A stretch of DNA of 33,810 nt from Acidobacteriota bacterium (GTDB lineage Bacteria; Acidobacteriota; Terriglobia; Terriglobales; Acidobacteriaceae), in the NCBI GenBank assembly GCA_003225075.1, contig QIAP01000033.1:1-33810 (forward strand), written 5' to 3'. Under the pieces are notes generated by a model. The model saw nothing but the letters and a program-made list of their open reading frames with translations. It searched no databases and was not told where the DNA came from. The position numbers and the translations under genes are program-made. Below are positions 6,745 to 21,079 of the stretch, piece by piece; the stretch's first letter is position 1; each line of letters opens with the position of its first letter.

Positions 6745-7884
6745 TCACACCTTCACCCATCTTCGTTCCCGCGCACTGGCCGCGATAGCATCGCACAATA
6801 CGAGTTCTTCATGGCCGGTTTCAAACGTGGGGAAACGGCGAGGCGCTTGGAAATCGCCGGCAGAAATATACCCGTAGAAATCGTTGAACAACTGCACAAA
6901 TGTATCGGGATAACCCTCGATATGTCCTCCGGGATAGGCTGCATACCCGCGCGCCTCCGGACTCATAAGCGCCGGATCTTTCATCATTCGTTGATTTGCT
7001 TCATTACGATGCCCGATCCACAGCACGTTCGGCGACTCGGAGTGCCAGGCTAGAGATCCCTCTGACCCATCCACTTCGAACCACAGCCGCGCCTTGCGTC
7101 CGGCGCTCACTTGCGAAACCGTCATCACACCCCGCAGCGAATTTTCAAAGTGCAGAAGGACTGAACCATAATCGTCCGTGTTGATCTTTACTTCGTCAAA
7201 GGCGCCATCGCTCTGCTCTTGAAAAGTCTCGACGCGCCCGCGCGGTTTGCGCCGCACTGGTATGACAGTCGCCAGATCGGCGCAGACTTCGGTGACTTTG
7301 CGTCCCGTAATCCACGTCATCAAGTCCAACCAGTGTGTGCCAATGTCGGAAATCGCCCGCAACTCACCGCCCAGATGTGGCTCCAGACGCCAATTCCAGT
7401 CAGTGGGATAAAAAAGCCAGTCTTGCAGGAAGCTTCCGTACACCAACCGCGGCTCTCCGATCAATCCGTGTCCAACCAAGGCTCTCGCTTCCTGGCAAAG
7501 CGGGTAGTAGCGAAGGTTGTAAGTAACGCCCCCGGCTCGGTTCTGCTGCCGCGCCGCTTCGATCAACGCAGCACTCTCCTTGATATTCATGGCCAGCGGT
7601 TTTTCGCACATGACGTGCTTGCCCGCTTTCAACAGGGTATCCGCCTGTTCGTGGTGTAGGTGGTTCGGTGTGCAGATGTGCACCACATCAACTTCCTTGT
7701 CCCCGACCACTTCTTCGAGGGAACCGTATGCGCGGCTGAGACGAAGAGAGTTAGCGCCGTCCTTTGTTCTGTCTGGAGAACTCCCGAGAACTCCCTCCAC
7801 CGGCACGCCTAGGCGTCGCAGAGCTTCCACATGAGCCCTACCGACAAAGCCAATCCCGATCACTGCCGCCCGCAGGTTTACCAT
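6745..7884 (-). CDS. Gfo/Idh/MocA-family NAD(P)-dependent oxidoreductase
   Basis: This 379-residue cytosolic enzyme starts at the ATG at 7884, with AGGTGA about 4 nt upstream. Residues 6-30 form the Rossmann strand and dinucleotide loop (VIGIGFVGRAH, GxGxxG at 10-15). CEKPLA (EKP 94-96) is the family motif bearing the catalytic Lys95, and GTHWLD (182-187) supplies His184 of the substrate site. The C-terminal half is the alpha/beta substrate-binding domain. Members oxidise or reduce sugars, inositols and related polyols. The substrate here cannot be read from the sequence. The gene stands alone, with 180 bp of upstream DNA holding a strong palindrome, so it may be regulated on its own. Confidence 0.9.
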   Translation of the reverse strand: MVNLRAAVIGIGFVGRAHVEALRRLGVPVEGVLGSSPDRTKDGANSLRLSRAYGSLEEVVGDKEVDVVHICTPNHLHHEQADTLLKAGKHVMCEKPLAMNIKESAALIEAARQQNRAGGVTYNLRYYPLCQEARALVGHGLIGEPRLVYGSFLQDWLFYPTDWNWRLEPHLGGELRAISDIGTHWLDLMTWITGRKVTEVCADLATVIPVRRKPRGRVETFQEQSDGAFDEVKINTDDYGSVLLHFENSLRGVMTVSQVSAGRKARLWFEVDGSEGSLAWHSESPNVLWIGHRNEANQRMMKDPALMSPEARGYAAYPGGHIEGYPDTFVQLFNDFYGYISAGDFQAPRRFPTFETGHEELVLCDAIAASARERRWVKV

Positions 7885-7989
7885 CCGTCACCTCAGGTAG
7901 TTTTGAAATGAAGTAGAAGTGTACCGGAAGGAGAAAGACTGGGATATCGCCTGAATTCGATGGGACTGCGTGTAACGGTTCTCGCACGT

Positions 7990-8009
7990 GAAGAATACTG
8001 GTATTCTTC
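7990..8009. promoter_or_regulatory. Perfect 9-bp inverted repeat upstream of the oxidoreductase gene
   Basis: GAAGAATAC and GTATTCTTC flank a 2-bp TG centre, giving a compact 20-bp palindrome. It lies 105 bp upstream of the oxidoreductase start and 55 bp beyond the stop of the cystathionine gamma-synthase-like gene. There is no T-tract, and a 2-base loop is unfavourable for an RNA hairpin, so a dimeric transcription-factor site is the better reading. The cognate regulator is unknown. Confidence 0.5.
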
Positions 8010-8064
8010 GACAGGGCGTGTCTTTTCGGAAGCTCGTACAGGATTGCAGAGCTTTCAAAGTACA

Positions 8065-9267
8065 CTATCCAACTTGGGCATGTTGCCGGGTCGTACTTAC
8101 CACGGCGAGTCCCTGTTCCAGATCAGCAATCAGATCATCAGCGTTCTCAATACCCACCGACAACCGGATCAATTGTTCCGTGACGCCCATCTTCTGCCGC
8201 GCCTCGGGCGAGATCATGGCATGAGAAGTGAGTACCGGAAGGCTGACCAGTGAGTCCACTCCGCCCAGGCTGGGCGCAAGCGTGAAGAGGTGCAGCGCCT
8301 CGGAGAGATGGCGGGCATCTTCTCCCGTGCCATCAACTTCAAAGCTCAACACGCCGCCGCCACCAGCCATCTGTTCCATCGCCAGGGCGCGTTGCGGATG
8401 ACCTTCAAGGAATGGATAATGCACTCGTTTGACCTTGGGATGAGCACGGAGAAATTCCGCCACTCGCAACGCGTTTTCATTCTGCCTTTGGACGCGCACC
8501 GCCACCGTCTTAATTCCGCGCAGCAGCAAAAACGCGGCGTGAGGATCCATGCAGCTTCCCAGCACGGTCCGGCTTTCGTGAATGTTCTCAATCATGTCAC
8601 GCCGTCCCGCAACGATGCCGCAGATTAGATCAGAGTGTCCACCGAAATACTTCGTCCCAGAATGCATTACCAGGTCGATGCCAAATTCCGCGGGACGCTG
8701 GTTGATCGGTGTGGCGAAAGTACTGTCAATCATGGTGATTAAGCTGTGCTGCTTTGCCAACGCCGCAGCCTTTCGCAAATCCACCACCTTCAAAGTAGGG
8801 TTGGTCGGTGATTCAAGATAGAGAAGCTTTGTATTTGGCCGGATCGCGCGTGCGTGCTGCTCGTACTCTGTCGTGTCCACAAACGTGGTTTCGACGCCCA
8901 TCTTTGGGAGCCATTGGCTGAGGAACTTGGTGGCGCCTCCGTAAATATCCCGCTGAGCGACGATGTGATCCCCGCTCTTCACCAGCGCAAATATTGACGT
9001 CGTAATCGCCGCCATGCCGGATGCGAAAAGAAGGGCAGCATCCACGCCTTCCAGTTCAGCCACTGCAGCCTCGGCGACCGTATGGGTCGGATTGCCATAC
9101 CGCGTGTAGAACATGTCAGTGTGCGTTGCCCGCACCTGTTGCTCACTGTCTGTCACTTCGAAAGTCGAGGTCTGATAAATCGGAGTCGCCAGCGGCCCAT
9201 TCTTTTTCGTGAGATCGGTCCCGCCGCGTACGGCTTCGGTTTCCTGACGACGCTGATGCTTCTTCAT
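8065..9267 (-). CDS. Trans-sulfuration PLP enzyme (cystathionine gamma-synthase/gamma-lyase family)
   Basis: The 400-residue protein has a strong ribosome-binding site (AAGGAGGGAG) before its ATG at 9267. Family landmarks are YTRYGNPT (54-61, phosphate-binding Tyr and Arg from the partner subunit), SGMAA (83-87), LESPTNP (151-157), D181 pairing with the pyridine nitrogen, and SGTKYFGGHSD with Lys206 forming the internal aldimine. The family makes or cleaves cystathionine or related gamma-substituted homoserines in methionine and cysteine metabolism; sequence alone does not separate synthase, gamma-lyase and sulfhydrylase. It follows ilvE with a 20-bp gap on the same strand, so the two are probably co-transcribed. 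Confidence 0.92.
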   Translation of the reverse strand: MKKHQRRQETEAVRGGTDLTKKNGPLATPIYQTSTFEVTDSEQQVRATHTDMFYTRYGNPTHTVAEAAVAELEGVDAALLFASGMAAITTSIFALVKSGDHIVAQRDIYGGATKFLSQWLPKMGVETTFVDTTEYEQHARAIRPNTKLLYLESPTNPTLKVVDLRKAAALAKQHSLITMIDSTFATPINQRPAEFGIDLVMHSGTKYFGGHSDLICGIVAGRRDMIENIHESRTVLGSCMDPHAAFLLLRGIKTVAVRVQRQNENALRVAEFLRAHPKVKRVHYPFLEGHPQRALAMEQMAGGGGVLSFEVDGTGEDARHLSEALHLFTLAPSLGGVDSLVSLPVLTSHAMISPEARQKMGVTEQLIRLSVGIENADDLIADLEQGLAVVSTTRQHAQVG

Positions 9268-9287
9268 ACTCCCTCCTTAGTAGGCAC

Positions 9288-10232
9288 TCACGCTTTAGCA
9301 ACCGCAGTGTCGAAGGCGGGTACAAGGGAAAGCCATTCCGCCGATCGAGGGTGCCGTCCACTTGTGACTTGCTCGAAAGACTCCTGCAACAAGCGCGCAA
9401 CCGGGCCAGTCTTACCGTCGCCAATCATTCGAAAATCAATTTCCCGTAGCGCGATCACTTCAGCCGCCGTGCCGCAAACGAAAACCTCGTCAGCAATATA
9501 AAGTTGATCCCGCGAGATGGGTTCCTCGAGTACGGTATAGCCCAGGTCACGAGCCAACGTAATCAAGCTGTCGCGGGTAATCCCTTCCAGAATTGAAGCC
9601 TTCGGCACGGTGTAGATCACATTGTCGCGCACCAGAAATATGTTCTCGCCCGAGCACTCGGCTACGTATCCCTGGGGATCAAGCATGATGGCCTCATCGA
9701 ATCCCAGGCGTTGCGACTCCGTCTTGGCCAGGATCGAGCCCACATAATTTCCCGAGACCTTGGCCTTGGTCATCATGATATTTGGGTGCAGGCGCGTATA
9801 TGAGGAAATATTGGCGCGAATACCGCGTTCCCGTGCTTCTGCGCCTAGAAACGAAGTCCACTCCCAGACGGCGATCATCAACCGCGGTTTGCCGCTGTCC
9901 ACTACCAGGTTCATCGCCCCATCCAGATAGATCAGCGGCCGGATGTAGCAGGCGGAAAAGCCATTCGCTGCGACCGTCTTGTGAATCGCCTCCAGGAGTT
10001 CAGCCCGTGTGAAAGATAGATCTCGAAAACCGACAATGTGCGCCGAATCGAGCAGGCGATCAACGTGCTCCTCCAACCGGAAAATGGCGGCTCCAGTATC
10101 AGTTGCATAGCAGCGTATGCCTTCGAATACGCTAAAGCCATAGTGCAAGCCGGCATTCACAAAAGGAATTTTTGATTCGGACGAGTCTTTCAGTTCGTGC
10201 TCAACCCAAACGTAACGCGATTTAGATGCCAT
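9288..10232 (-). CDS. ilvE: Branched-chain amino acid aminotransferase
   Basis: The 314-residue fold-type IV PLP enzyme begins MASKSRYVWVEHELKDS, with GAGGAT before the ATG at 10232. It shows the class-IV pattern: GLHYGFSVFEGIRCY near 28-42, the catalytic lysine K158 in AKVSGNY, E192 in GYVAECSGENIF, and ASILEGITRDSLITLA. It transfers the amino group between glutamate and Leu, Ile or Val 2-oxo acids in the cytosol. It is first in a two-gene unit with the trans-sulfuration enzyme and divergent from the SDR gene. Length and motifs are ordinary; a D-amino acid transaminase role is less likely given EGIRCY and total length. Confidence 0.9.
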   Translation of the reverse strand: MASKSRYVWVEHELKDSSESKIPFVNAGLHYGFSVFEGIRCYATDTGAAIFRLEEHVDRLLDSAHIVGFRDLSFTRAELLEAIHKTVAANGFSACYIRPLIYLDGAMNLVVDSGKPRLMIAVWEWTSFLGAEARERGIRANISSYTRLHPNIMMTKAKVSGNYVGSILAKTESQRLGFDEAIMLDPQGYVAECSGENIFLVRDNVIYTVPKASILEGITRDSLITLARDLGYTVLEEPISRDQLYIADEVFVCGTAAEVIALREIDFRMIGDGKTGPVARLLQESFEQVTSGRHPRSAEWLSLVPAFDTAVAKA

Positions 10233-10331
10233 AGAATCCTCGATCCACGACTAGATAATTATTCAAGAGTAACTGTCAGAACCCGACTGAGCAAGAGCCT
10301 TCGCGGTCTTAACCTTCCGAATAGCGTCGAT

Positions 10332-10361
10332 TTATCACGACCCCCGGACTCGATTTATAAT
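10332..10361 (+). promoter_or_regulatory. Promoter giving a near-leaderless SDR transcript
   Basis: A perfect -10 TATAAT (10356-10361) lies 18 bp after a -35-like TTATCA (10332-10337). Transcription would begin near 10367-10369 and the SDR ATG is at 10371, so the mRNA would have almost no 5' leader. No Shine-Dalgarno is visible before that ATG, which agrees. Confidence 0.55.
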
Positions 10362-10370
10362 CGCCCCCTT

Positions 10371-11159
10371 ATGGATACAGGCCTAAAAAACCGGGTTGCC
10401 ATCGTCGCCGCGTCCAGCCAGGGAATCGGTCGGGCCGCGGCCGAAGCCTTTGCCGCTGAGGGATGCCGCGTCGCTATGTGCGCCCGCAATCCGGAAGCGC
10501 TCCAAACCGCCGCCAAGAAAATACAAAAACAATACAGTGCCGAAGTGTTAGCCGAGGCTTTGGATGTCACCGATCCGAGTGCCGTGCACCGTTTTGTCGA
10601 AGCTGTCGTTAGTAATTTTGGCGGGGTCGATATCTGCGTCACCAATGCCGGAGGTCCGCCGGCCAAGGGCTTCCTCGCTGCTTCGCTGGAAGACTGGCGA
10701 AAAGCCGTAGACCTCAACTTTCTAAGCACGGTCTATTTCGCCCGTGAAGTCATTCCTCACATGCAGCGCAAACATTGGGGTCGAATCATCACCATTACCT
10801 CAATCACTACCAAGCAGCCGGTGGCCGATCTGGTCCTCTCAAATGCCGTGCGAGCCGCCGTGGTTGGTCTGGTCAAGAGTCTTGCCAACGAATTCGGGAA
10901 AGATGGAATCCTGGTTAACAACGTAGGACCCGGGTATACGGCCACCGATCGCCTGAAGGAACTTGCCAAGTCCCGTTCCGCGGTGCTAGGCAAGAATGAA
11001 AATGAAATCTTCGAAAGCTGGGCGATGGATTCTCCGCTCAAACGTCTGGGCGAACCTCGCGAGGTCGCGGATACCATTGTGTGGCTCGCCTCGGAAAGAG
11101 CCTCGTATATTACCGGTCAGACCGTCCTGGTGGATGGGGGGCTTTATAAGGGTCTATAA
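10371..11159 (+). CDS. Atypical short-chain dehydrogenase/reductase (FabG-like fold, canonical YxxxK absent)
   Basis: The protein has 262 residues from the ATG at 10371, chosen because homology (KNRVAIVAASSQGIGRA) starts there and a TATAAT box lies just upstream. A Rossmann fold is clear: AASSQGIG (13-20) in place of TGxxxGIG, TNAGG (91-95), SITS with S144, and NNVGPGYT (183-190). Where YxxxK should lie, 13 residues after S144, the sequence is S157-N-A-V-R161, so both catalytic residues are changed. A known subgroup of beta-ketoacyl-ACP-reductase-like SDRs lacks the perfect tetrad, and this resembles it. It may use different chemistry or be non-catalytic. It is divergent from ilvE and 274 bp ahead of the second receptor. 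Confidence 0.88.
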   Translation: MDTGLKNRVAIVAASSQGIGRAAAEAFAAEGCRVAMCARNPEALQTAAKKIQKQYSAEVLAEALDVTDPSAVHRFVEAVVSNFGGVDICVTNAGGPPAKGFLAASLEDWRKAVDLNFLSTVYFAREVIPHMQRKHWGRIITITSITTKQPVADLVLSNAVRAAVVGLVKSLANEFGKDGILVNNVGPGYTATDRLKELAKSRSAVLGKNENEIFESWAMDSPLKRLGEPREVADTIVWLASERASYITGQTVLVDGGLYKGL

Positions 11160-11433: not shown

Positions 11434-14400
11434 ATGTCCAGGTCGGTCAATAAATTCCTTTGCTGCGCACTGTTGGCAATTTCACTGGTAGGCATGACCT
11501 TTGCCCAGGGCGGAGCTACGGGAGCCATCACCGGAACTGTGCAGGATTCAAGCGGTGCGGTGGTAGCCAATGCTGAGGTCCGCATCGTGAATCAGGACAC
11601 CGGCGCTCTCACCCGCACCACCAGGACTGATGGCAACGGCTCCTTTGCGGCAACCCTGCTGCCGGTGGGAAATTACACGGTCTCGGTCCACAGCCCGGGC
11701 TTTCGCGAAGGCAAGTTCCCCGACATCGCGGTGCGCGTAACCGAAACCACGCGCATGACCGCCAAGCTGGTGCCGCTACAGGTCCTGGAAAAAGTTGAAG
11801 TCCAGGCCCAGGTGCAGGCGGTAGATACGACCACCGCTACCACCGGAGAAAGCGTCGAAGCCAGGACAATTCGCAACCTGCCGCTGTCGACCCAGAACTT
11901 TCAGCAACTCCTGACTCTCTCTTCGGGTACTAACTCTGACCTGAATGCTTCCGCATCACTGGGGCGGGGAGATGTCCGCATAGAAGTAAACGGCCAGCGC
12001 GAAGACAATAACAACTACTTGATCGAGGGCATCAGCGCCACCGACTACAACGTCGCCGAGCTGACCAATACTCCATTACCCAGTCCCGATGTTGTTCAGG
12101 AATTCAAAGTCCAAACCAGTATGTACGACGCCACCCAAGGCCGAAATGGCGGTGGGAACATCAACGCCATTCTGAAGACTGGGACCCGCAACTTTCACGG
12201 TAGCTTGTTTGAGTTTTTTCGCAATACGGACTTGAATGCGAATGAGTTCTTCCTCAAGCGAAGTCAAACGAGATTAGGCCTCTCCAACCGCCGGCCCGAT
12301 ATCAAGCAGAACATTTTCGGCGGTAGCCTGGGCGGACCGGTCGGAAAGGAAGGCAAGGGGGGCTTCTTTTTTGTGAATTATCAGGGCACTCGGCAGCGCA
12401 GCGGTCTTTCCCCGGGAGCAATCATCAGCACTACGCTCCCTGTTCTGCCAGCAGATCGCTCCCCAGGCTCGCTGGCCGCGACCATGTTCCCCGGAAACCC
12501 TAGTGTCACGGCTGCTACGATCGACCCGGTAGCGGCGAAGCTGCTCGCTTTCAAAAGTAATCAGTTCAATGATGCGAGTGGATTTCTGTTTCCTGGCGCC
12601 GACCCTTCCTCTGGTGGCCAATTCGTGCTCAGTAAAGCTGGAACTTACACGGATGACCAGTTCACCGCCAATTACGATCGCGAGTTCCACAACAGTGCCG
12701 ACAAGATCTCAGCGCGCTTTTTCTTTTCCAATTTCGAGTCGGTGTTGCCCTTCGGAGCGGGTGGTTTGACCGCGACCCTGGGTGGCACCATCAGCCAGAC
12801 AGATCTTAATTTCCCTCTCGACCTGCCGGTGCACGATCGTTTCTTCAGCATCGCCGAGACTCATCTTTTCAACCCCCGGCTGGTAAACGAGTTTCGCTTC
12901 GGCTACGTGCATATAGACAACAAGGCAATCAACAAGCCCATCATCACCGTGGACGACCTGGGCATCAACCGGCCCAACAATAATCTCTTTAAGACGATTT
13001 ACAAGTTCACCTTTTCCACCTTTCAGCTTGGCCCCACCCCGGGTGCGGACCAAAGCCAACTGCAAAACAACCTCACTTTTTTGGATACCGCCAGCTATAC
13101 CGCAGGGAAGCATTTGCTTCGCTTTGGCGGCGAGTATGACCGGGTGAACCTCGACAAGAACTTTCCGCAAACCTTTAATGGAGAGTTGTTCTTCTTTCCT
13201 TCACCAGCCAATCCCAGCGACCCGAATGATCCTTGTGCAGCCACCGCGCAAAATCCCAACGGTGGATGCTCGGACTTTCAAAATTTCCTTCGAGGTGCGC
13301 CCGGATTCTCCTTTGGCGGCAGCGGCGTATTCAATCATCAATATAGGATCAACGACTACGGTCTTTTCCTGCAGGACGACTACAAAGCGACCCCCAACCT
13401 GACGATCAACGCCGGCCTGCGATGGGAGTTATTCGGCGCCGCTAAAGATAACCGGTGCCATATCGGCAATACGATCTCGGCGCTCGCCAATCAGGGCATC
13501 GAGCCGTTCGTATATCCCAAGTGCGTCGGCAAACTCGGAGTGCCGGGCTTTACCGGTACTCTTAGCGATAGCACCATGAAAAATGGCTACGCTTCCAATT
13601 GGGGACCCCGTCTCGGTTTCGCTTACGACCTGTTCGGCCATCACACCACCGCAATCCGCGGTGGATATGGCATCTTTTATGTGCGTGAAGATGTGGGTAC
13701 TGTGGACCAGCTATCGTTTACGACTCCGATTCTTCCTATTACGACGCCAGTTGGAACTCCAGGAGACATGGCGGACGTCTTCGCCGTCGGTCCCGGCAGA
13801 CTGCCGACCGGAGGAGTCATTGATCCAGCCTTCATTCCCGTCTATTCGCCCTTTCTCGGCTTTGCCGATTGCGCAACCGGCGCGCCCACCACGGACACTA
13901 GCCAGTGCGCCGTTTTCGATAATGGACAGCCCAATGCCTTCGGGGATGCTACGCATCCCAACGGCATTTTCGGAGGCAACAGCATTAACCTGTTCGGACT
14001 GGAAGTCCCGCGGCACTTTGTCTCGCCCAGCACGCAACAGTGGAACCTGAGCATTCAGCAACAACTGCCTCGAAACTGGATATTGGAAGTAGGCTACGTC
14101 GGCACCAAGGGCACGCACCTTCGTGAAACTCGTGATTCCATTCAGCCTTTCGACGCGACCACTCATCCCGTGACGCTAACCGCTCTGAACGGAACGGTTT
14201 ACACGGTTAACCAGAACACATTCTTTAATGCCAACGCGCGCTCCCGCGCCCTCGGACTGGCAACCCAGAACTATCAATTATTCGCCAGCGATGCCTGGTC
14301 GAATTACCATTCCTTGCAGGTGACCGCCTCGCATCGCTTCTCTAGATCCCTCTATTTCCAGGCGGCATACACATGGTCGAAGGCGCTTGATGCCACCTCC

Positions 14401-15066
14401 AGTGGCAACACGGCATTCAACACTGCCATTAACGATCAGACGAATTTGCGAAACTCCTATGGTCCAGCCGACTTCGATCGCCCTCACCGGTTTGTGATCA
14501 GTTACAACTGGGATATGCCCTTCTTCGCAAGCGGCACCGGTGTCGTCGGCGCTGTGTTGAGCCATTGGACACTCAGCGGAATTACAACATTTCAATCTGG
14601 CACCCCATTTACGGTCATCGACGCGGGTGGTGGACTTGGCTTCAACCTGAGTAGTCCGAACACCAGTACTGCAACCTTGAACCCGGGATTCACCCTGTCT
14701 TCGGTGCAGACCAGCGGCGATGTCCACAACCGACTTGACAGTTGGTTCAAAGTTGACTCCCTGGGTGTGCCGCTGGGCATTAGTGGAGCGCCCGTGATTG
14801 GACCAAACGGCGAAACGGGTTTCGGCAATTTGAGTCGCAACGATTTCCGTGGACCCCGCCAGCAAAACTGGGATGTCTCCATTGGTAAGAACTTCCGCAT
14901 TACGGAGGGCAAAACCTTCAAGTTCGCAGCCGACTTCTTCAATATTTGGAATCACCCGATTTTTGCCAGTCCCAACAGCATCTTCAACGGTCTGGGTTTC
15001 GGTACGATCACCAGTACCAAAGGCACTCCACGGCTGATCCAGCTTTCTGGAAGGTTCTCTTTCTGA
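11434..15066 (+). CDS. Oar-like TonB-dependent outer-membrane receptor, second copy (intact)
   Basis: The protein has 1210 residues, with a purine-rich AGGGGAGGGG just before the ATG. Residues 1-24 are a signal peptide (CCALLAISLVGMTFA). Residues 28-105 form the carboxypeptidase-regulatory domain (GAITGTVQDSSGAVVANAEV...VHSPGF). The linker LVPLQVLEKVEVQAQV follows, then the plug with NLPLSTQNFQQLLTLSSG, EVNGQREDNNNYLIEG and DATQGRNGGGNINAILKTGT. The barrel ends LIQLSGRFSF, whose terminal Phe suits Bam recognition. It probably imports an organic substrate with TonB energy. Its TGA stop overlaps the ATG of the AhpD-like gene by one base, so translation is coupled; in its own frame a second TGA follows the first. 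It is the natural intact comparison for the deleted first receptor. Confidence 0.92.
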   Translation: MSRSVNKFLCCALLAISLVGMTFAQGGATGAITGTVQDSSGAVVANAEVRIVNQDTGALTRTTRTDGNGSFAATLLPVGNYTVSVHSPGFREGKFPDIAVRVTETTRMTAKLVPLQVLEKVEVQAQVQAVDTTTATTGESVEARTIRNLPLSTQNFQQLLTLSSGTNSDLNASASLGRGDVRIEVNGQREDNNNYLIEGISATDYNVAELTNTPLPSPDVVQEFKVQTSMYDATQGRNGGGNINAILKTGTRNFHGSLFEFFRNTDLNANEFFLKRSQTRLGLSNRRPDIKQNIFGGSLGGPVGKEGKGGFFFVNYQGTRQRSGLSPGAIISTTLPVLPADRSPGSLAATMFPGNPSVTAATIDPVAAKLLAFKSNQFNDASGFLFPGADPSSGGQFVLSKAGTYTDDQFTANYDREFHNSADKISARFFFSNFESVLPFGAGGLTATLGGTISQTDLNFPLDLPVHDRFFSIAETHLFNPRLVNEFRFGYVHIDNKAINKPIITVDDLGINRPNNNLFKTIYKFTFSTFQLGPTPGADQSQLQNNLTFLDTASYTAGKHLLRFGGEYDRVNLDKNFPQTFNGELFFFPSPANPSDPNDPCAATAQNPNGGCSDFQNFLRGAPGFSFGGSGVFNHQYRINDYGLFLQDDYKATPNLTINAGLRWELFGAAKDNRCHIGNTISALANQGIEPFVYPKCVGKLGVPGFTGTLSDSTMKNGYASNWGPRLGFAYDLFGHHTTAIRGGYGIFYVREDVGTVDQLSFTTPILPITTPVGTPGDMADVFAVGPGRLPTGGVIDPAFIPVYSPFLGFADCATGAPTTDTSQCAVFDNGQPNAFGDATHPNGIFGGNSINLFGLEVPRHFVSPSTQQWNLSIQQQLPRNWILEVGYVGTKGTHLRETRDSIQPFDATTHPVTLTALNGTVYTVNQNTFFNANARSRALGLATQNYQLFASDAWSNYHSLQVTASHRFSRSLYFQAAYTWSKALDATSSGNTAFNTAINDQTNLRNSYGPADFDRPHRFVISYNWDMPFFASGTGVVGAVLSHWTLSGITTFQSGTPFTVIDAGGGLGFNLSSPNTSTATLNPGFTLSSVQTSGDVHNRLDSWFKVDSLGVPLGISGAPVIGPNGETGFGNLSRNDFRGPRQQNWDVSIGKNFRITEGKTFKFAADFFNIWNHPIFASPNSIFNGLGFGTITSTKGTPRLIQLSGRFSF

Positions 15067-15635
15067 TGAAAGGCCAAAAGCCTCGCATCCCCCTGCTAGA
15101 GCGCGATCAGGTCTCGTCCGAGGTCGGCGCCATCTACGACGCTCTCCTTCAGCAGCGGGGCGTAGTGCCCAACATGTTCAAAACCATTGCGCATACTCCG
15201 GCGCTGGCGCAAGGTATTGCCGCGTTCCTCAAGCCGCTCATGGGAGATGGCGCGCTGCCCGGCTCCTACAAAGAACTGGTTGCAACCCGCGTCGCCTGGC
15301 TTCAGGATTGCGATTATTGAATCACCGCGCACTCTGTTTCGGCGAAACAGAAGGGTGCTACCGAGGATCAAATCGAAGCCGTGAAGGGCAACTTCGAAAA
15401 GGGACCGTTCACCGAGGCGGAAAAGGTCGGTCTGCGCTGTGCCGACAAACTTCATCGCTCGCCTCACGAACTCGACGACAACTTCTACGCGCAACTGAAG
15501 AGTTTCTATAACGATCAGCAGATAATCGAACTGACCGCCACCGCTGCCGCTTTCGATTTCTTCCCGCGCTTTGTGGACGCTCTGCGCATCCCCACCACTC
15601 CCGTGCCCGAAGGAGTTTTCGAAAAGAAGGATTGA
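15066..15635 (+). CDS. AhpD-like (carboxymuconolactone decarboxylase family) protein, candidate selenoprotein with Sec at codon 85
   Basis: The frame runs 190 codons from the ATG at 15066 to the TGA at 15633, interrupted by one TGA at 15318-15320. Both sides match one AhpD-like/CMD protein in the same frame: KELVATRVAWLQDCDY before it, ITAHSVSAKQKGATEDQI after, ending VFEKKD. AhpD uses Glu, CxxC and His with spacings 12, 3 and 4; here E70, C82, TGA85 and H89 fit exactly, so the TGA replaces the second catalytic Cys. A hairpin resembling a bacterial SECIS lies just downstream. Sec-containing AhpD-like proteins are known from selenoproteome surveys. The likely role is thiol/selenol peroxidase or disulfide reductase chemistry in the cytosol. 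It overlaps the receptor stop and abuts the aminotransferase ATG. The alternative is a nonsense mutation or base error. Confidence 0.8.
15321..15358 (+). promoter_or_regulatory. SECIS-like hairpin downstream of the in-frame TGA
   Basis: An upper stem TCTGTTTC (15333-15340) / GAAACAGA (15344-15351) of 8 perfect pairs carries a GGC loop. A lower stem GCAC (15329-15332) / GTGC (15355-15358) adds 4 pairs, with a 3-base AGG bulge on the 3' side. The loop starts 20 nt after the TGA. Bacterial SECIS elements lie within the coding region right after the UGA, with the loop about 16-37 nt away and G in the first loop positions; these criteria are met. The structure was paired by eye. Confidence 0.65.
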
Positions 15636-16823
15636 ATGCGACCCTTGGCTTCCCGAATGTCGGTGATGAGTGGCGAAGGCGCGCTCTCAGTCTTTGCCCA
15701 TGCCAGGGAACTGGAGCGCCAGGGTCGTTCCATTATTCATCTGGAACTGGGCGAACCGGATTTTCATCCCGCCGAGCCGGTCATCGACGCTCTTCACAAG
15801 GCCGTCAAAGAAGGGAAGGACCGTTATTGCCGCGTCGCCGGCGTCCCTGCGCTTTGCGAGGAATTAGCGACCTACCTTCGCCGGACACGGAATTTAAACA
15901 TTTCGCCAGAGAACGTCGTTATCGCGCCCGGCTGCAAGATCGCGCTATTCCTCGCCATGATGGCGCTGATCGAGCCCGGCGACGAAGTTCTTTTTCCCGA
16001 TCCCGGTTTTCCTGGATATCCCTCGATCACGCTGGGCCTCGGTGGCGTTCCCGTTCCTTTCCAGCTAGCAGAACGAAATCGCCTCCAGCCCGATCCCGAC
16101 GAGATCGCCGCGAAAATCACGCCGCGTTCCAAGATCCTGATTACCAATTCGCCGGGTAATCCCACGGGAAGCGTTTACACGGACGACGTCCAGCGTCGCA
16201 TCGCAGAGCTCGCCGTCAAACACGATCTCTATGTTCTCTCCGACGAAATCTACGCTCGCATTATCTACCGCCCAAACTACTTATCGATGCTCACCTATCC
16301 CGGGATGGAAGAGCGCACGCTGATCATCGATGGCTTTTCCAAAAGCTTCGCCATGACCGGATGGCGCCTGGGTTACACCGTTGCTCCTGCGCACATCGTG
16401 CCTGCCTTGGTCATGCTCGCCATCAACAGCTACACCTGTGTCACCGAGTTCACTCAATATGCCGCAGTGGAAGCTTTGCGTGATCGAGCCCAAGCCACGC
16501 CTCGGATGGTGAAGGAGTTCGCGCAACGCCGCGAGCAGTTTGTCCGCGACTTGAACCGTGTGCCGGGATTCCGCTGTGCTCCTCCGGAAGGGGCGTTCTA
16601 TGCCTGGGTCAACATCAGTGATACTGGTAGCCGCGCCGAGGAAATTTGCCGCATTATGCTGGATGATGCCGGCGTCGCTGCCATTCCCGGCGCAGCTTTT
16701 GGCGCCTCCGGCAAGGATTTCGTGCGATTTTCCTTCGCATCTTCAACCGCTACCTTGCAAGAAGCGGTGGAGCGCATTCTCAAAGTTTCCAGCGCCTGGC
16801 AGGGAACACTAGCAAGAAGATAG
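15636..16823 (+). CDS. Class I/II pyridoxal-phosphate aminotransferase
   Basis: The 395-residue enzyme has its ATG directly after the TGA of the AhpD-like gene, with AGAAGG upstream. Fold-type I landmarks: ELGEPDF near 37-43, NSPGNPTG with N175 contacting PLP, SDEIYARI with D203 and Y206, DGFSKSFAMTGWRLGY with the Schiff-base lysine K236 and R244, and a C-terminal FVRFSFA with the substrate-carboxylate arginine. It resembles aspartate-aminotransferase-like enzymes of broad specificity. The usual glycine-rich YTxxxG segment reads RYCRVAGVPAL. No leader peptide, so cytosolic. Zero spacing indicates an operon with the redox protein and receptor; the amino acid used is not evident. Confidence 0.9.
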   Translation: MRPLASRMSVMSGEGALSVFAHARELERQGRSIIHLELGEPDFHPAEPVIDALHKAVKEGKDRYCRVAGVPALCEELATYLRRTRNLNISPENVVIAPGCKIALFLAMMALIEPGDEVLFPDPGFPGYPSITLGLGGVPVPFQLAERNRLQPDPDEIAAKITPRSKILITNSPGNPTGSVYTDDVQRRIAELAVKHDLYVLSDEIYARIIYRPNYLSMLTYPGMEERTLIIDGFSKSFAMTGWRLGYTVAPAHIVPALVMLAINSYTCVTEFTQYAAVEALRDRAQATPRMVKEFAQRREQFVRDLNRVPGFRCAPPEGAFYAWVNISDTGSRAEEICRIMLDDAGVAAIPGAAFGASGKDFVRFSFASSTATLQEAVERILKVSSAWQGTLARR

Positions 16824-16848: not shown

Positions 16849-18189
16849 ATGAAGTTCAGGTGTCGCTGGTGGCAATGGTTTGTGATCCTCACAGCAGCAT
16901 CGAGCAGTTTAATGGTGTTCGCCCAGGCCCGTCCTTTTCCCGGGCCTGATGTGCAGCAGATCTATCAACGGCTTTTGCCGCAAGTAGAAAAGATTCCCAT
17001 CTTCGATCACCATGCTCATCCTGGTTTTCCCGACGATCCCGACGTTGACGCCATGGCCGCTCCTCCCGGCAGCGCCGCTCTGCGTGAGCGTGACAGCAAT
17101 CTCGAACTAGTCGCGGCCGCCAAGGCTCTGTTTGGCTATCCCTACAACGATTTCTCCCCTGAGCACGCCAAGTGGCTGGTCCAGAAAAAAGCCGAGTTGA
17201 AGAAGTCGCAGGGCAACGCCTACTTCTCCAATATTCTCGACAAGCTAAATATCGAGCGCTCGGTCGCGAACCGCGCCATGATGGCCGGCTATCTCGATCC
17301 CAAGCGCTTTCCGTGGGTCTTTTTTGCCGACGCCTTCATGTGGCCATTCGACAACCAGCAGCAGCGCTCCCGTAATCCTGACGAACAGGTTTACATTCCC
17401 TTACAGGAAAAAATGCTGCACCGTTGGATGCAGCAGGCGCAGCTCAACAGGCCCCCCGCTGACTTTGCAGGCTATCTCTCATTCATCAGCAGCACCCTCG
17501 AGGAGAACCAGAGGCGGGGCGGTATCGCTATGAAGTTTGAAGTAGCGTATTTCCGCTCAACCAAATTCAGCAATCCGCCTCGCCAACAGGCGGAACAGAT
17601 TTACCAGCATTATGTCAATGGGGGCGTGCCGGCTGCCGATGATTACCGCATCTTTCAGGATTACATTTTCCGTTACTTGATTAGTGAAGGCGGCCGCCTC
17701 CATCTTCCTGTCCATATCCACTCGGCGGTCGGCATCGGCGATTATTTCAACATCTCCGAGGCCAACATAATGAACCTGGAGAATATTCTCCGCGATCCCC
17801 GCTATTCCGCTGTGACGTTTGTGATGATTCACGGCGGATATCCGCTGGAACGCGAAGCCATCTGGTTGGCCGCGGTGAAGAACGTCTATATGGATTCCTC
17901 GCTGATGGAAATTGCCATGTATCCTTCAGAGTTTAAGAATTCGCTCAAGCAATGGCTGGAAACATTTCCCGACAAGATCACATTCGGTACTGACGCTTTC
18001 CCTTACAATGATGTTCTCGGCGCCGAAGAGAGCTATTGGCTGGGCGTGCAGTCGGCGAGACAGGGCCTGGCTGCTGCGCTTGCCGAAATGGTATCCATGG
18101 GAGAGGTAAGCGAATCCAAGGCGCTGGAGATGGCCCACGGCTACCTCCACGATAATGCGATTCGCATCTACGAAGGCAAGGTTCAGTGA
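16849..18189 (+). CDS. Exported amidohydrolase-family metal-dependent hydrolase
   Basis: The 446-residue protein has a signal peptide (Arg/Trp-rich start, VILTAASSSLMVFAQA, cleavage near 26) and a TIM-barrel amidohydrolase-2 pattern. DHHAHPG gives the HxH metal pair (H55, H57); HIHSAVG and MIHGGYP supply later histidines, and FGTDAFP gives the catalytic or metal Asp D382. The relatives act on C-N or C-C bonds of ring or carboxylated compounds; the substrate is unknown. It starts 25 bp after the aminotransferase and ends 1 bp before the cupin ATG, so it belongs to the receptor-led operon. Periplasmic location would let it process material brought in by the receptor, which is inference. Confidence 0.85.
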   Translation: MKFRCRWWQWFVILTAASSSLMVFAQARPFPGPDVQQIYQRLLPQVEKIPIFDHHAHPGFPDDPDVDAMAAPPGSAALRERDSNLELVAAAKALFGYPYNDFSPEHAKWLVQKKAELKKSQGNAYFSNILDKLNIERSVANRAMMAGYLDPKRFPWVFFADAFMWPFDNQQQRSRNPDEQVYIPLQEKMLHRWMQQAQLNRPPADFAGYLSFISSTLEENQRRGGIAMKFEVAYFRSTKFSNPPRQQAEQIYQHYVNGGVPAADDYRIFQDYIFRYLISEGGRLHLPVHIHSAVGIGDYFNISEANIMNLENILRDPRYSAVTFVMIHGGYPLEREAIWLAAVKNVYMDSSLMEIAMYPSEFKNSLKQWLETFPDKITFGTDAFPYNDVLGAEESYWLGVQSARQGLAAALAEMVSMGEVSESKALEMAHGYLHDNAIRIYEGKVQ

Positions 18190-18190
18190 T

Positions 18191-18682
18191 ATGGCAAGAA
18201 CTGGCATGTCAAGTAAGAGGGTTTCCGCTAACAAGAGCGGCAGCAGCAAAAACAGCGCCATGAGAAAGAAGCCGATGGCGCCGGTCTTCCGCCAGAAGGG
18301 TGTGGAGAAAAAACGAGGCGCGACTGCCACCTTGAAACACGTCCCCTGGAACACAGTGGAATTAGAGAGCTTGAACCCGCTGCTCCAGCGTCAGTTCGTG
18401 GTCGGCCATGACGTTATGCTGGCGCGCGTCCTGCTGAAGAAGGGCTGCATCGTGCCCCACCATAGCCACGTCAATGAGCAGATCACCTACATTCTGGAAG
18501 GTGCGCTGAAGTTCTGGATCGACGGCCGCGAGATCACGGTCCATGCCGGGGAAGTGCTGACTATTCCTCCGAACATGCCGCACAAGGCAGAAGCGCTCGT
18601 GGACACCGTGGATCTGGACGTTTTCAATCCGCCACGCGCTGACTGGATTAATAAGGACGACAAATATCTGCGTGGCAAATAG
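18191..18682 (+). CDS. Cupin-domain protein with a basic N-terminal tail
   Basis: The protein has 163 residues from the ATG at 18191, one base after the amidohydrolase stop; later ATG codons (for example residue 24) are possible starts. Residues 1-45 are rich in Lys, Arg and Ser and look disordered. Residues 65-150 are one cupin barrel: PHHSHVNEQITYILEGALKF gives motif 1 (H91, H93, E96/Q97) and PPNMPHKAEA gives motif 2 His131. The metal-binding set is therefore present. Such small cupins act as dioxygenases, isomerases or sensors. It is the last gene tightly coupled to the receptor-led group, 50 bp before threonine synthase. Confidence 0.85.
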   Translation: MARTGMSSKRVSANKSGSSKNSAMRKKPMAPVFRQKGVEKKRGATATLKHVPWNTVELESLNPLLQRQFVVGHDVMLARVLLKKGCIVPHHSHVNEQITYILEGALKFWIDGREITVHAGEVLTIPPNMPHKAEALVDTVDLDVFNPPRADWINKDDKYLRGK

Positions 18683-18732
18683 ACCAGAAATAGATCGCAG
18701 CAATAATTCAAGTTCCGTTGCCGCGTACTCAC

Positions 18733-20118
18733 ATGACCAATCGCACGATTTCCATTCCGACTGCCGCCCCGGTGTCGAGTTTTCGCTGCATTGCATGCGG
18801 CGTCATCCGTGACAACGTTAGTCATGATTTTCGTTGTACCGATTGCGGCGATCTATTGGAGATCTTTTACCCCGCCTGGCACAGCGAACAGATGGCGACC
18901 AACGCGCCAGGCTTCAAGGCGCTATGGCAGCAAAGGAAGACTTCTCGGCGGGCAATCGATGAAAGCGGCGTTTGGCGTTTTCGCGAACTTCTGCCTGCCC
19001 TTCGCGACTGGGATCAAGCCGTCACCCTGCGCGAAGGCAATACGCCTCTCTACAATCTTCCTGCTTGTGCCCGCATCGCCGGCGTAAAACAGCTTTACGC
19101 CAAGCATCAGGGCATGAATCCGACAGGCTCGTTCAAGGACACAGGCATGACCGTAGCCGCATCCTTTGCCCTGCAGGAGGGCTTCCGCTGGGTCGCCTGC
19201 GCTTCCACGGGAAATACTTCTGCCTCCATGGCGGCCTATGCTGCGAGGTCTGCCATGCGAAGTCTGGTGGTCATTCCCGAAGGCAAAGTTTCCTGGGCGA
19301 AACTTTCTCAGGCACTGGACTACGGTGCCCTTACCTGCGAGCTACGTACTGACTTTGATGGCTGCATGCGAGTGCTCAATGAAGTCGTGAAGCAGTGGCC
19401 CGTTTGCCTGCTAAATTCCGTCAATCCTTATCGCATTGAAGGACAGAAAACTGGCGCCATCGAACTCCTTGAGCAATTCGATGGGCAGGTGCCCGATCAC
19501 ATCATCGTTCCCGGCGGGAATTTGGGAAACTGCTCGGCGCTCGGCAAAGCTCTTCTCGAACTGCTGGATCTGGGTCTGATTACACGAACGCCGAAAGTCT
19601 CGGTCATTCAGGCGGAGGGCGCTAATACACTGCTGCGCAGTGTTAGAGAACACGGTGGAAAGAAATTGATTCCCATGCAAGCTCAGACCGCCGCCACTGC
19701 CATCCGTATCGGCAGTCCTGCATCCTGGAAGAAGGCAGTGCGTGTGTTGCAGGCCACTGGCGGGACCGTCGAACAAGCCAGCGAAATTGAAATAGCCCAG
19801 TCTAAAGCCGAAATCGGCGCTGATGGAATCGGCTGCGAGCCGGCCTCCGCCGTCACCCTGGCCGGACTGAAAAAGCTGGTAAAACAAGAATTCGTAAAAC
19901 AAGATGACATCGTGGTACTTATCTTGACCGGTCACTTGCTCAAAGATCCTGAGTTCACCCTCAAATTTCATCGCGGAGACTTATTCAAAGGCACAGAATA
20001 CGAGCAACAAGCCGCTGCTCTCCGCTTACATCAGCGTGCTCGCGTCACTTTGGAGCCCACGGCGGATGCCGTCGTGAAGGCGCTCGAACAGGCCGAAAAG
20101 AGCACCCCGCCCAATTAG
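18733..20118 (+). CDS. thrC: Threonine synthase with N-terminal zinc-ribbon-like segment
   Basis: The protein has 461 residues from the ATG at 18733; a TTG 15 bp upstream in frame is an alternative start, and neither has a good Shine-Dalgarno. Residues 19-38 hold CIACG...CTDCG, four Cys as in the rubredoxin-like knuckle of one threonine synthase branch. The PLP lysine is K135 in GSFKDTG, and STGNTSASMAAYAA, PGGNLGN and the C-terminal LTGHLLKD are typical of the fold-type II family. It converts O-phosphohomoserine to threonine in the cytosol. thrB follows after one base, giving the last two steps of threonine synthesis together. Confidence 0.93.
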   Translation: MTNRTISIPTAAPVSSFRCIACGVIRDNVSHDFRCTDCGDLLEIFYPAWHSEQMATNAPGFKALWQQRKTSRRAIDESGVWRFRELLPALRDWDQAVTLREGNTPLYNLPACARIAGVKQLYAKHQGMNPTGSFKDTGMTVAASFALQEGFRWVACASTGNTSASMAAYAARSAMRSLVVIPEGKVSWAKLSQALDYGALTCELRTDFDGCMRVLNEVVKQWPVCLLNSVNPYRIEGQKTGAIELLEQFDGQVPDHIIVPGGNLGNCSALGKALLELLDLGLITRTPKVSVIQAEGANTLLRSVREHGGKKLIPMQAQTAATAIRIGSPASWKKAVRVLQATGGTVEQASEIEIAQSKAEIGADGIGCEPASAVTLAGLKKLVKQEFVKQDDIVVLILTGHLLKDPEFTLKFHRGDLFKGTEYEQQAAALRLHQRARVTLEPTADAVVKALEQAEKSTPPN

Positions 20119-20119
20119 A

Positions 20120-21079
20120 ATGCCGAGTATCAACCGCTCTGCCCAGCGCCGCAGCAGTTCATTACAGCTAAGTCTTCCCGCAACCTCCGCCAATCTTGGA
20201 CCGGCATTCGATGCGGCAGCCCTGGCGCTGCAACTGTTTCTGAAAATCAAGGCTAGTTCTGCCGCGGAGTTCTCGATCGTTGCCCGGGGCCGCGACGCCG
20301 CCATCTGCAATCAGATCAACAACCACCTCATCCTGGATACCTACCGCGACGTGCTGCGCTCACAGGGCAAAAAGATCATGCCTCTCGGTCTGCGCATCGA
20401 AAATGAAATTCCCATCGGCAAAGGCCTCGGTTCTTCGGCAGCCGCCCGTCTTGCAGGGATCGCTCTGGCCGTCCATTTTGGAAAATTGGATTGGACCGAA
20501 AGCAGGATCATTGGCGAGGCCTCGCGCCGCGAGCACCATCCCGATAATGCCGCTGCCTGCTGGATGGGAGGCTTGGCCGTGGCCCGCATGTCCTCGGAGT
20601 TCGAAGCTCAGGTATTGCGCGTGAAACCAAAAGGCAAGTGGCCCCTGCTGGTTGCAGTTCCAAATGAGAGTCTGCCGACGGAAGAAGCGCGGCGCGCACT
20701 GCCTGCTCAATACTCGCGTGCCGATGCTGTCGCCAATGTCCAAAATTCGATGCTTCTGTTAGCCGCGTTTGTCGAGGGACGATCCGATCTTCTCGCCTCC
20801 GCTCTTAAAGATCGCTTCCACCAACCTTATCGTGCCAAATTGTGTCCATTGCTGCCGGCCGTTACCGAACTTGTAGGAAAACCTGGAATTTTAGGCGTAA
20901 GTTTGAGTGGCGCCGGCCCGTCAGTCCTGATTTTTCTTGATCCGAAAATTCCTAAGAATAAAGTGCGGCAGGCGCTCATCTCTCACTTGAAGATCCACAG
21001 GCTCGCGGCAGAATTGCTCGATACCGCTATTTCTCTTCACGGAGCGCGAGGAGAAGAGAACCGAACGGGCAAGCGATAA
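20120..21079 (+). CDS. thrB: Homoserine kinase (GHMP family)
   Basis: The 319-residue enzyme starts one base after the thrC stop. GHMP landmarks are LPATSANLGPAFDAAALAL (19-37), the ATP loop PIGKGLGSSAAA (98-109) and the C-terminal GVSLSGAGPSVLIF. It phosphorylates L-homoserine to O-phosphohomoserine, the substrate of the upstream enzyme. The order thrC-thrB in one transcript is common. Homoserine also links to the cystathionine gamma-synthase-like gene on the other strand. No terminator is visible after it. Confidence 0.93.
   Translation: MPSINRSAQRRSSSLQLSLPATSANLGPAFDAAALALQLFLKIKASSAAEFSIVARGRDAAICNQINNHLILDTYRDVLRSQGKKIMPLGLRIENEIPIGKGLGSSAAARLAGIALAVHFGKLDWTESRIIGEASRREHHPDNAAACWMGGLAVARMSSEFEAQVLRVKPKGKWPLLVAVPNESLPTEEARRALPAQYSRADAVANVQNSMLLLAAFVEGRSDLLASALKDRFHQPYRAKLCPLLPAVTELVGKPGILGVSLSGAGPSVLIFLDPKIPKNKVRQALISHLKIHRLAAELLDTAISLHGARGEENRTGKR

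Follow-up and report, generated by a model that had tools for sequence, protein, structure and literature searches.

What does a TGA codon do in the middle of an acidobacterial gene for an AhpD/CMD-like protein, at the position where this family carries the second cysteine of its CxxC motif? The gene lies in a stretch of 33,810 nucleotides, here called the window, which is contig C61 of an Acidobacteriota draft genome of 4.79 Mb (259 contigs, completeness 97.6%). Translation of the whole gene (Table 1) yields 189 residues and meets one internal stop, the TGA at codon 85; a further 104 codons follow in the same frame, the terminal TGA (15633-15635) abuts the ATG at 15636, and the gene's own ATG overlaps the stop codon of the gene before it. 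E70, C82, codon 85 and H89 are spaced 12/3/4, and we take them to be the counterparts of E118, C130, C133 and H137 of Mycobacterium tuberculosis AhpD. An earlier note, made from the sequence alone, had described this site, spacing, tail and abutting stop, all of which are borne out by translation, and had called the product a probable selenoprotein, a proposal now supported by the presence of selenocysteine (Sec) genes, conservation of the TGA, Cys at the same codon in relatives, and a hairpin downstream. With a probability of about 0.94–0.95 we conclude that the gene is intact and that codon 85 is decoded as Sec, insertion being indicated by the conserved UGA, the hairpin, the machinery, selection on the downstream segment, and the fold.

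Relatives were compared in two alignments. A protein search across 100 genomes (the source genome and its relatives) gave matches in 93, and the best 30 of these 93, one locus per genome, together with locus L001 of the source genome make up the 31 loci of set A. Set B comprises 48 loci from a peptide-pattern scan of GTDB contigs, or 49 rows with the window; the scan catches only genes bearing either of two short peptide patterns, and the proportions of states within it are not natural frequencies. The titles of 46 of the 48 loci name Acidobacteria or groups within them (Terriglobia, Terriglobales and Acidipila being placed there on our assumption) and the other two name Planctomycetes. The two sets overlap, in that the main-family loci of set A other than L031, L037 and L038 are also in set B. 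Column 85 of set A holds TGA in 19 loci, Cys in six and Ala in five, with one locus frameshifted; in set B it holds TGA in 10 rows, Cys in 18 and Ala or Gly in 20, again with one frameshifted. The TGA is thus kept in some relatives and matched by Cys in others, and the scattered frameshifts that the earlier note had named as a counter-sign are not seen, a single copy (L120, one of 49 rows) being affected. In that locus (L120 6001-6464, genome G059) the operonic CMD gene apparently carries a frameshift, while the genes around it have homologues matched along most of their length. Another relative, the same-genus genome G001, has two TGA-bearing CMD copies (L075 and L076, on contigs C342 and C674 respectively), each followed by the aminotransferase gene.

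The segment beyond the TGA is under strong constraint. Comparison of the window gene with L075 gives a ratio of nonsynonymous to synonymous substitution rates (dN/dS) of 0.063 for the part before the UGA and 0.028 for the part beyond it, and comparison with L076 gives 0.061 and 0.023. These values are rough, since dS approaches or exceeds 1, and in rows that start at residue 2 the split is displaced by one codon. At 0.02–0.03, the downstream ratio indicates that this segment is very likely translated and useful. It bears directly on a first alternative, in which the TGA arose by nonsense mutation or sequencing error and the gene is either dead or truly encodes Cys. The draft state of the genome, the frameshifted L120 and a second CMD gene of the source genome that has an additional stop and no in-frame start (see below) are all in keeping with such an origin, but genomes from several genera, each assembled separately, have the TGA in this very column, the main-family Sec rows contain no other internal stop, and the downstream hairpin covaries. 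Conservation of the TGA together with selection clearly disfavours a pseudogene or assembly error, which we consider very improbable.

The hairpin has the form expected of a bacterial selenocysteine insertion sequence (SECIS), with a small apical loop that starts with G just 3′ of the UGA; a small loop with a guanosine is described as common to bacterial SECIS elements in passages of PMC1088965. Its loop begins 20 nt past the UGA. All seven pairs and the GGC loop at +20 are present in every one of the 15 Cys-x-x-TGA rows of the set used for the tree, eight from the main family and seven from a sister family whose members are 34–42% identical to the window protein. Five further Sec rows were scored separately from the tree set (sister loci L045, L052, L055 and L056, which are four of the 11 sister TGA loci, and L031), and four of them have 7/7 pairs, so that overall the hairpin is complete in 9/9 Cys-x-x-TGA rows of the main family and 10/11 of the sister family. 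By comparison, 43 non-Sec rows form at most four of the seven pairs in the same register. The two Planctomycete CMD genes (L121 130-651 and L122 6001-6516) have Ser-x-x-TGA rather than Cys-x-x-TGA and form 4/7 pairs in the acidobacterial register.

Covariation was measured in several ways. Four of the seven pairs are altered on both sides, amounting to 26 cells against a mean of 10.2 in shuffled alignments and 0–9 in slid controls. Fully paired 7-bp stems in the SECIS register are uncommon by chance: of 151304 positions on both strands of the window and three other source-genome stretches, 199 have one, as do seven of the 2332 TGA triplets in the same stretches, two of these seven being CMD genes. 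Sec and non-Sec rows also differ in the fold z-scores of their 48-nt stretches (Mann-Whitney p 6e-5), although we regard pair counts as the better evidence, given the kinship among rows and the near-zero z of several Sec rows. A search of the source genome with a covariance model of the hairpin returned one weak match besides the window copy, which we rejected (E 5.84; no TGA precedes it, and its frame looks transposase-like by eye only). The model missed the hairpins of the three other UGA genes described below, and is thus too sequence-specific for a general SECIS search.

The source genome contains all four of the Sec genes that the earlier note had proposed to look for. Profiles for selA, selB and selD score 545, 369 and 350 bits (cut-offs 267.9, 242.25 and 125 respectively), and selC, the gene for tRNA-Sec, reaches 70.2 bits (gathering score 47) and is named tRNA-SeC with anticodon tca by ARAGORN. 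Readthrough of the UGA as Trp or Cys under another code was set aside on the strength of the hairpin and this full Sec machinery. Among the relatives, G051, G002 and G067 have selB, and their tRNA-Sec matches are weak and of a kind seen also in genomes lacking selB.

Family searches for other UGA genes in the source genome revealed three: SelD, a CMD gene on contig C72 and a CMD gene on contig C153 adjacent to selB. The TGA of SelD lies in KAAG-U-ASK (L024 1501-2526, minus strand, G000:C227), and SelD and the C153 gene both have a hairpin with a 3-nt loop (triloop) at +20; the in-frame TGA and the position of the hairpin loop make it likely that SelD is itself a selenoprotein. In both CMD genes the TGA is at the second motif position. 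The C72 gene (L003, minus strand, G000:C72:60159-60320) reads NRCVY-TGA-IESH and has a 7-bp triloop hairpin at +17. The C153 gene (L001, about 1384-1914) reads NRCNY-TGA, includes an in-frame TAA and lacks an in-frame start, and this copy looks broken or misassembled. CMD genes are also found beside selB in relatives, with an in-frame TGA in G004, G005, G012, G053 and G040, and without one in G007, G010, G011, G036 and G049.

The protein itself belongs to the CMD superfamily, with a PF02627 match of 64 bits (cut-off 23) across residues 45–106. An AlphaFold2 model built from a 44-row alignment, with C substituted for U, has a mean predicted local distance difference test score of 93.7 and a predicted template-modelling score of 0.89, and it forms a single fold across the TGA with residue 85 inside a helix (83–95). 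These observations bear on a second alternative, that the UGA truly terminates translation or acts as a regulated switch, yielding an 84-residue product, the remainder being a separate protein or the outcome of leaky readthrough. Standard annotation would read the TGA as a stop, and an open reading frame starting with GTG follows at 15381; the UGA nevertheless falls inside both the domain and the modelled helix, and is followed closely by a SECIS-like hairpin with a loop starting with G, and we judge this alternative to be highly unlikely. Some truncation accompanies Sec decoding in general.

The closest structures in the PDB are AhpD-like peroxidase-related proteins (2prr, 6k40, 2pfx, 2oyo and 3c1l), which match the full-length fold with Z 21.4–22.4 over 179–186 residues (2prr being the best, Z 22.4 with 186 aligned) but are only 20–25% identical to the window protein; the two whose alignments were viewed, 2pfx and 3c1l, have CxxC where the window protein would have CxxU. 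The debrominase Bmp8 (Z 19.2–19.3) and M. tuberculosis AhpD (Z 11.1–11.4) are further matches; a literature search on debrominase Bmp8 found nothing. All 44 sequences share K69, E70, Y84 and H89. Two related families with Sec members, NF053654 (GroundWater_YciW) and NF041238 (AhpD_rel_CFYUT), give significant matches of 77.4 and 42.6 bits, but these lie below the cut-offs of 310 and 175 bits and we do not regard the window protein as a member of either. The fold is shared with the SESN-A domain of sestrin (sestrin-2 chains, Z 11.8–14.3). Passages of PMC11429811 give a sestrin C125-Y127-H132 motif whose spacing, C-x-Y-x4-H, equals that of C82-Y84-H89, and report that a sestrin domain of AhpD-like fold binds leucine; sestrins differ in being two-domain eukaryotic proteins with a single Cys in the motif quoted there.

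We propose that SelB, carrying a Sec-tRNA with anticodon UCA, would bind the hairpin just 3′ of UGA codon 85 and promote Sec insertion, giving a 189-residue protein of AhpD/CMD fold in which a Cys82-x-x-Sec85 pair sits beside Glu70, Tyr84 and His89. In the likeliest chemistry, which would be AhpD-like, the Sec85 selenolate reduces a peroxide or another oxidised small molecule, Cys82 resolves Sec85 by forming a selenenylsulfide, and the pair is reset by a cellular thiol system. The AhpD-type set of Glu, Cys-x-x-Sec and His at AhpD spacing, together with the fold, is present, and we consider AhpD-like redox chemistry to be somewhat probable.

Several observations weigh against this interpretation. 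The source genome is a fragmented draft. One Sec row, L083, is from a genome (G104) without a selB match above the cut-off, and genome G029 has TGA genes and selC, yet its selB does not exceed the cut-off; in both cases the missing selB is likely due to assembly gaps. The sister Sec row L045 has no hairpin in the SECIS register (2/7 pairs). Two of five covariation measures are not above shuffles (pairs altered on both sides, 4 versus 3.3; further pair types, 4 versus 7.9), and two of the covarying pairs follow the division between the two families exactly, so that each may reflect a single event, although the other two vary within a family too. The window stretch folds only moderately better than shuffled versions (z -2.5, with three of 200 shuffles as good), and the TIGR01926 score of 74.2 bits is below its cut-off of 81.8. 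A peroxidase role in particular is weakened by the absence of both Sec and Cys from column 85 in 20 of the 47 orthologues included in the tree.

These 20 stripped orthologues (Table 1) show that column 85 exists in three states, and we examined how the states are distributed. A tree of 60 rows was built with columns 82 and 85 blanked; the frameshifted G059 copy (L053/L120) was excluded from it and from the table of selB occurrence, and L038 (Ser/Ala, selB present) is absent from both. The rows of the operon form a clade of 24 (support 98/93) that includes five with Cys-Sec, 16 with Ser-Ala, two with Phe-Gly and one with Cys-Ala, and 19 Cys-Cys rows form a separate group (support 92/96). Eight state changes are needed for eight labels, the minimum possible being seven. 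The homologous hairpin suggests that Sec is old in both the main and sister families, with the root of the tree assumed. All 20 stripped orthologues retain E70 and H89, and in seven pairs of stripped forms (six of them from two trios) whole-gene dN/dS is 0.06–0.14, indicating that purifying selection acts on them and that the tested forms are not decaying.

The states also differ in the company of selB, which is over its cut-off for 7/8 Sec rows, 18/20 rows with neither residue and 3/19 Cys rows of the main family, where one genome contributes two Sec rows and the rows are related. A Fisher test of Cys against the rest gives p 4.6e-7, but well-supported branches of the tree provide just two independent pairs for Cys and three for Sec, such that a sign test cannot reach significance, and we therefore treat the association as a pattern rather than a proven dependence.

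The existence of the stripped orthologues speaks for an additional job of the protein that needs no redox pair. A further explanation, compatible with Sec decoding, is that the main role of the selenoprotein is something other than peroxide reduction, such as ligand binding, signalling or another reductase activity, with the Sec/Cys pair as an accessory. The number of stripped forms, their purifying selection and their retention of E70 and H89 favour this, as does the presence of Bmp8 and sestrin-2 among the fold neighbours, the latter with its matching motif spacing. Cys82 and the full hairpin are nonetheless kept in all nine main-family Sec rows, indicating that the Sec lineages are under selection for the redox pair, and we view a predominantly non-peroxide role as possible but the less probable outcome. 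Our broader interpretation, to which we give slightly less than an even chance, is that the same AhpD-like protein occurs in one recurrent acidobacterial neighbourhood in either a Sec form or a redox-stripped form and that, if Sec is ancestral, it was lost without becoming Cys; the stripped forms at the orthologous position, being under purifying selection, would then point to a second, non-redox job, perhaps the binding of an amino-acid-like ligand belonging to the operon, as in sestrin.

The neighbourhood in question is laid out in Table 1. It is probable that the CMD gene shares a transcript, and is coupled in translation, with the genes for a receptor-type protein and for amino-acid metabolism, and the protein may therefore act on a compound handled by the operon, although a substrate tied to the operon is a tentative suggestion. 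The upstream protein matches OMP_b-brl_4 with 570.6 bits (cut-off 30) and TonB_dep_Rec_b-barrel with 23.9 bits, below the cut-off of 27; the earlier note's identification of a TonB receptor thus holds for a receptor-type protein but falls short for the TonB-receptor barrel itself. On the minus strand at 6745-10232 are genes for a branched-chain aminotransferase (IlvE), a Cys/Met-metabolism enzyme dependent on pyridoxal phosphate and a Gfo/Idh/MocA dehydrogenase, and homologues of the first two adjoin the operon in some other loci.

Table 1. Features of the window and of its stripped orthologues, with positions, strand and basis of assignment.
Feature	Position or loci	Strand	Basis
Short-chain dehydrogenase (SDR), recurrent upstream neighbour	10197..11159	+	Profile match, locus comparison
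Outer-membrane receptor-type protein (CarboxypepD_reg + OMP_b-brl_4); stop overlaps CMD start	11434..15066	+	Profile match
Predicted AhpD/CMD-like selenoprotein gene, 189 aa + stop; active site C82-D-Y-U85	15066..15635	+	Translation, profile match, alignment, model
In-frame UGA, codon 85, predicted to be read as selenocysteine	15318..15320	+	Translation, conservation, tree
Putative bacterial SECIS hairpin; 15334-15340 pairs with 15344-15350 (7 bp), apical loop GGC at 15341-15343	15334..15350	+	Folding, pair counts, covariation
Class I/II aminotransferase; start abuts CMD stop	15636..16823	+	Profile match, locus comparison
Amidohydrolase (PF04909), recurrent downstream neighbour	16849..18189	+	Profile match, locus comparison
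Cupin protein; listed start overlaps amidohydrolase gene, true start maybe later	18155..18682	+	Profile match
Threonine synthase (TIGR00260 over cut-off)	18718..20118	+	Profile match
Homoserine kinase (TIGR00191 over cut-off)	20120..21079	+	Profile match
Orthologues with a residue other than Sec or Cys at column 85 (n=20; Ser/Ala, Phe/Gly, Cys/Ala, Cys/Gly)	L079-L082, L084-L090, L092, L094-L096, L098, L102, L104, L111, L117		

To compare neighbourhoods across set B, a neighbour was scored as a tblastn match of the window gene anywhere in the locus, ignoring order, and contig ends hide some neighbours. An aminotransferase homologue is found in 24 of the 49 rows (five Sec, 18 with neither residue and one frameshifted) and in none of the 18 Cys rows, and either the receptor or the aminotransferase is present with 19 of the 20 stripped orthologues. 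L084, which has neither Sec nor Cys, includes the receptor, but its contig stops there. In L093 (Sec) and L091 (Cys) the receptor is present and the aminotransferase absent, and the Sec rows L083 and L108 have neither gene. The receptor-linked context emphasised in the earlier note is thus real and recurrent, but it is not bound to Sec, as 18 of the 24 aminotransferase-bearing rows have no redox residue at column 85.

Selenoproteins of this type are known. Passages of reviews and surveys (PMC13188914, PMC9312934, PMC1088965, PMC2398784) describe AhpD-like (COG2128/TIGR01926) and CMD-like (PF02627) CxxU selenoproteins, which share with the window gene the CMD/AhpD family and a CxxU motif with Sec in second place, and PMC1088965 also gives SECIS-like elements downstream, as here. 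The window protein differs in scoring below the TIGR01926 cut-off, and neither the acidobacterial operon nor the stripped orthologues are named in those passages. The earlier note had suggested that a receptor-coupled AhpD-like Sec protein might be new, which is only partly borne out; its statement that AhpD-like Sec proteins are a known class agrees with published accounts (PMC13188914, PMC1088965, PMC2398784), but the receptor context is not specific to Sec. For Acidobacteria, the relevant part of PMC1794560 counts four selenoproteins in three families, and that of the deep-Sep study (PMC12013277) lists one acidobacterium with three selenoprotein genes. The latter also predicts that a Desulfosarcina TonB-dependent receptor is itself a selenoprotein, which is different from the receptor-adjacent CMD protein described here. 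A precedent for replacement of Sec by a residue other than Cys, with another function kept, is provided by metazoan SPS1, a selenophosphate synthetase that lacks both Sec and Cys (PMC4561486); that change is metazoan and came about by gene duplication, whereas here the swap is apparently at the same operon place and mostly in selB genomes. A literature search, with subscription journals and preprints mostly outside its range, gave no report of the operon or of AhpD-like orthologues without Sec or Cys.

The window gene adds to the known class of AhpD-like CxxU selenoproteins, and the unexpected part is the stripped orthologues. Annotation that takes the TGA as a stop would split the CMD gene at its active site. 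Sec, Cys and neither residue on one fold offer a natural three-way comparison, in which the Sec and stripped forms can be compared within the same neighbourhood, and swaps between these natural variants could address two questions: what benefit Sec brings to an AhpD-like protein, and what job the protein does without it.

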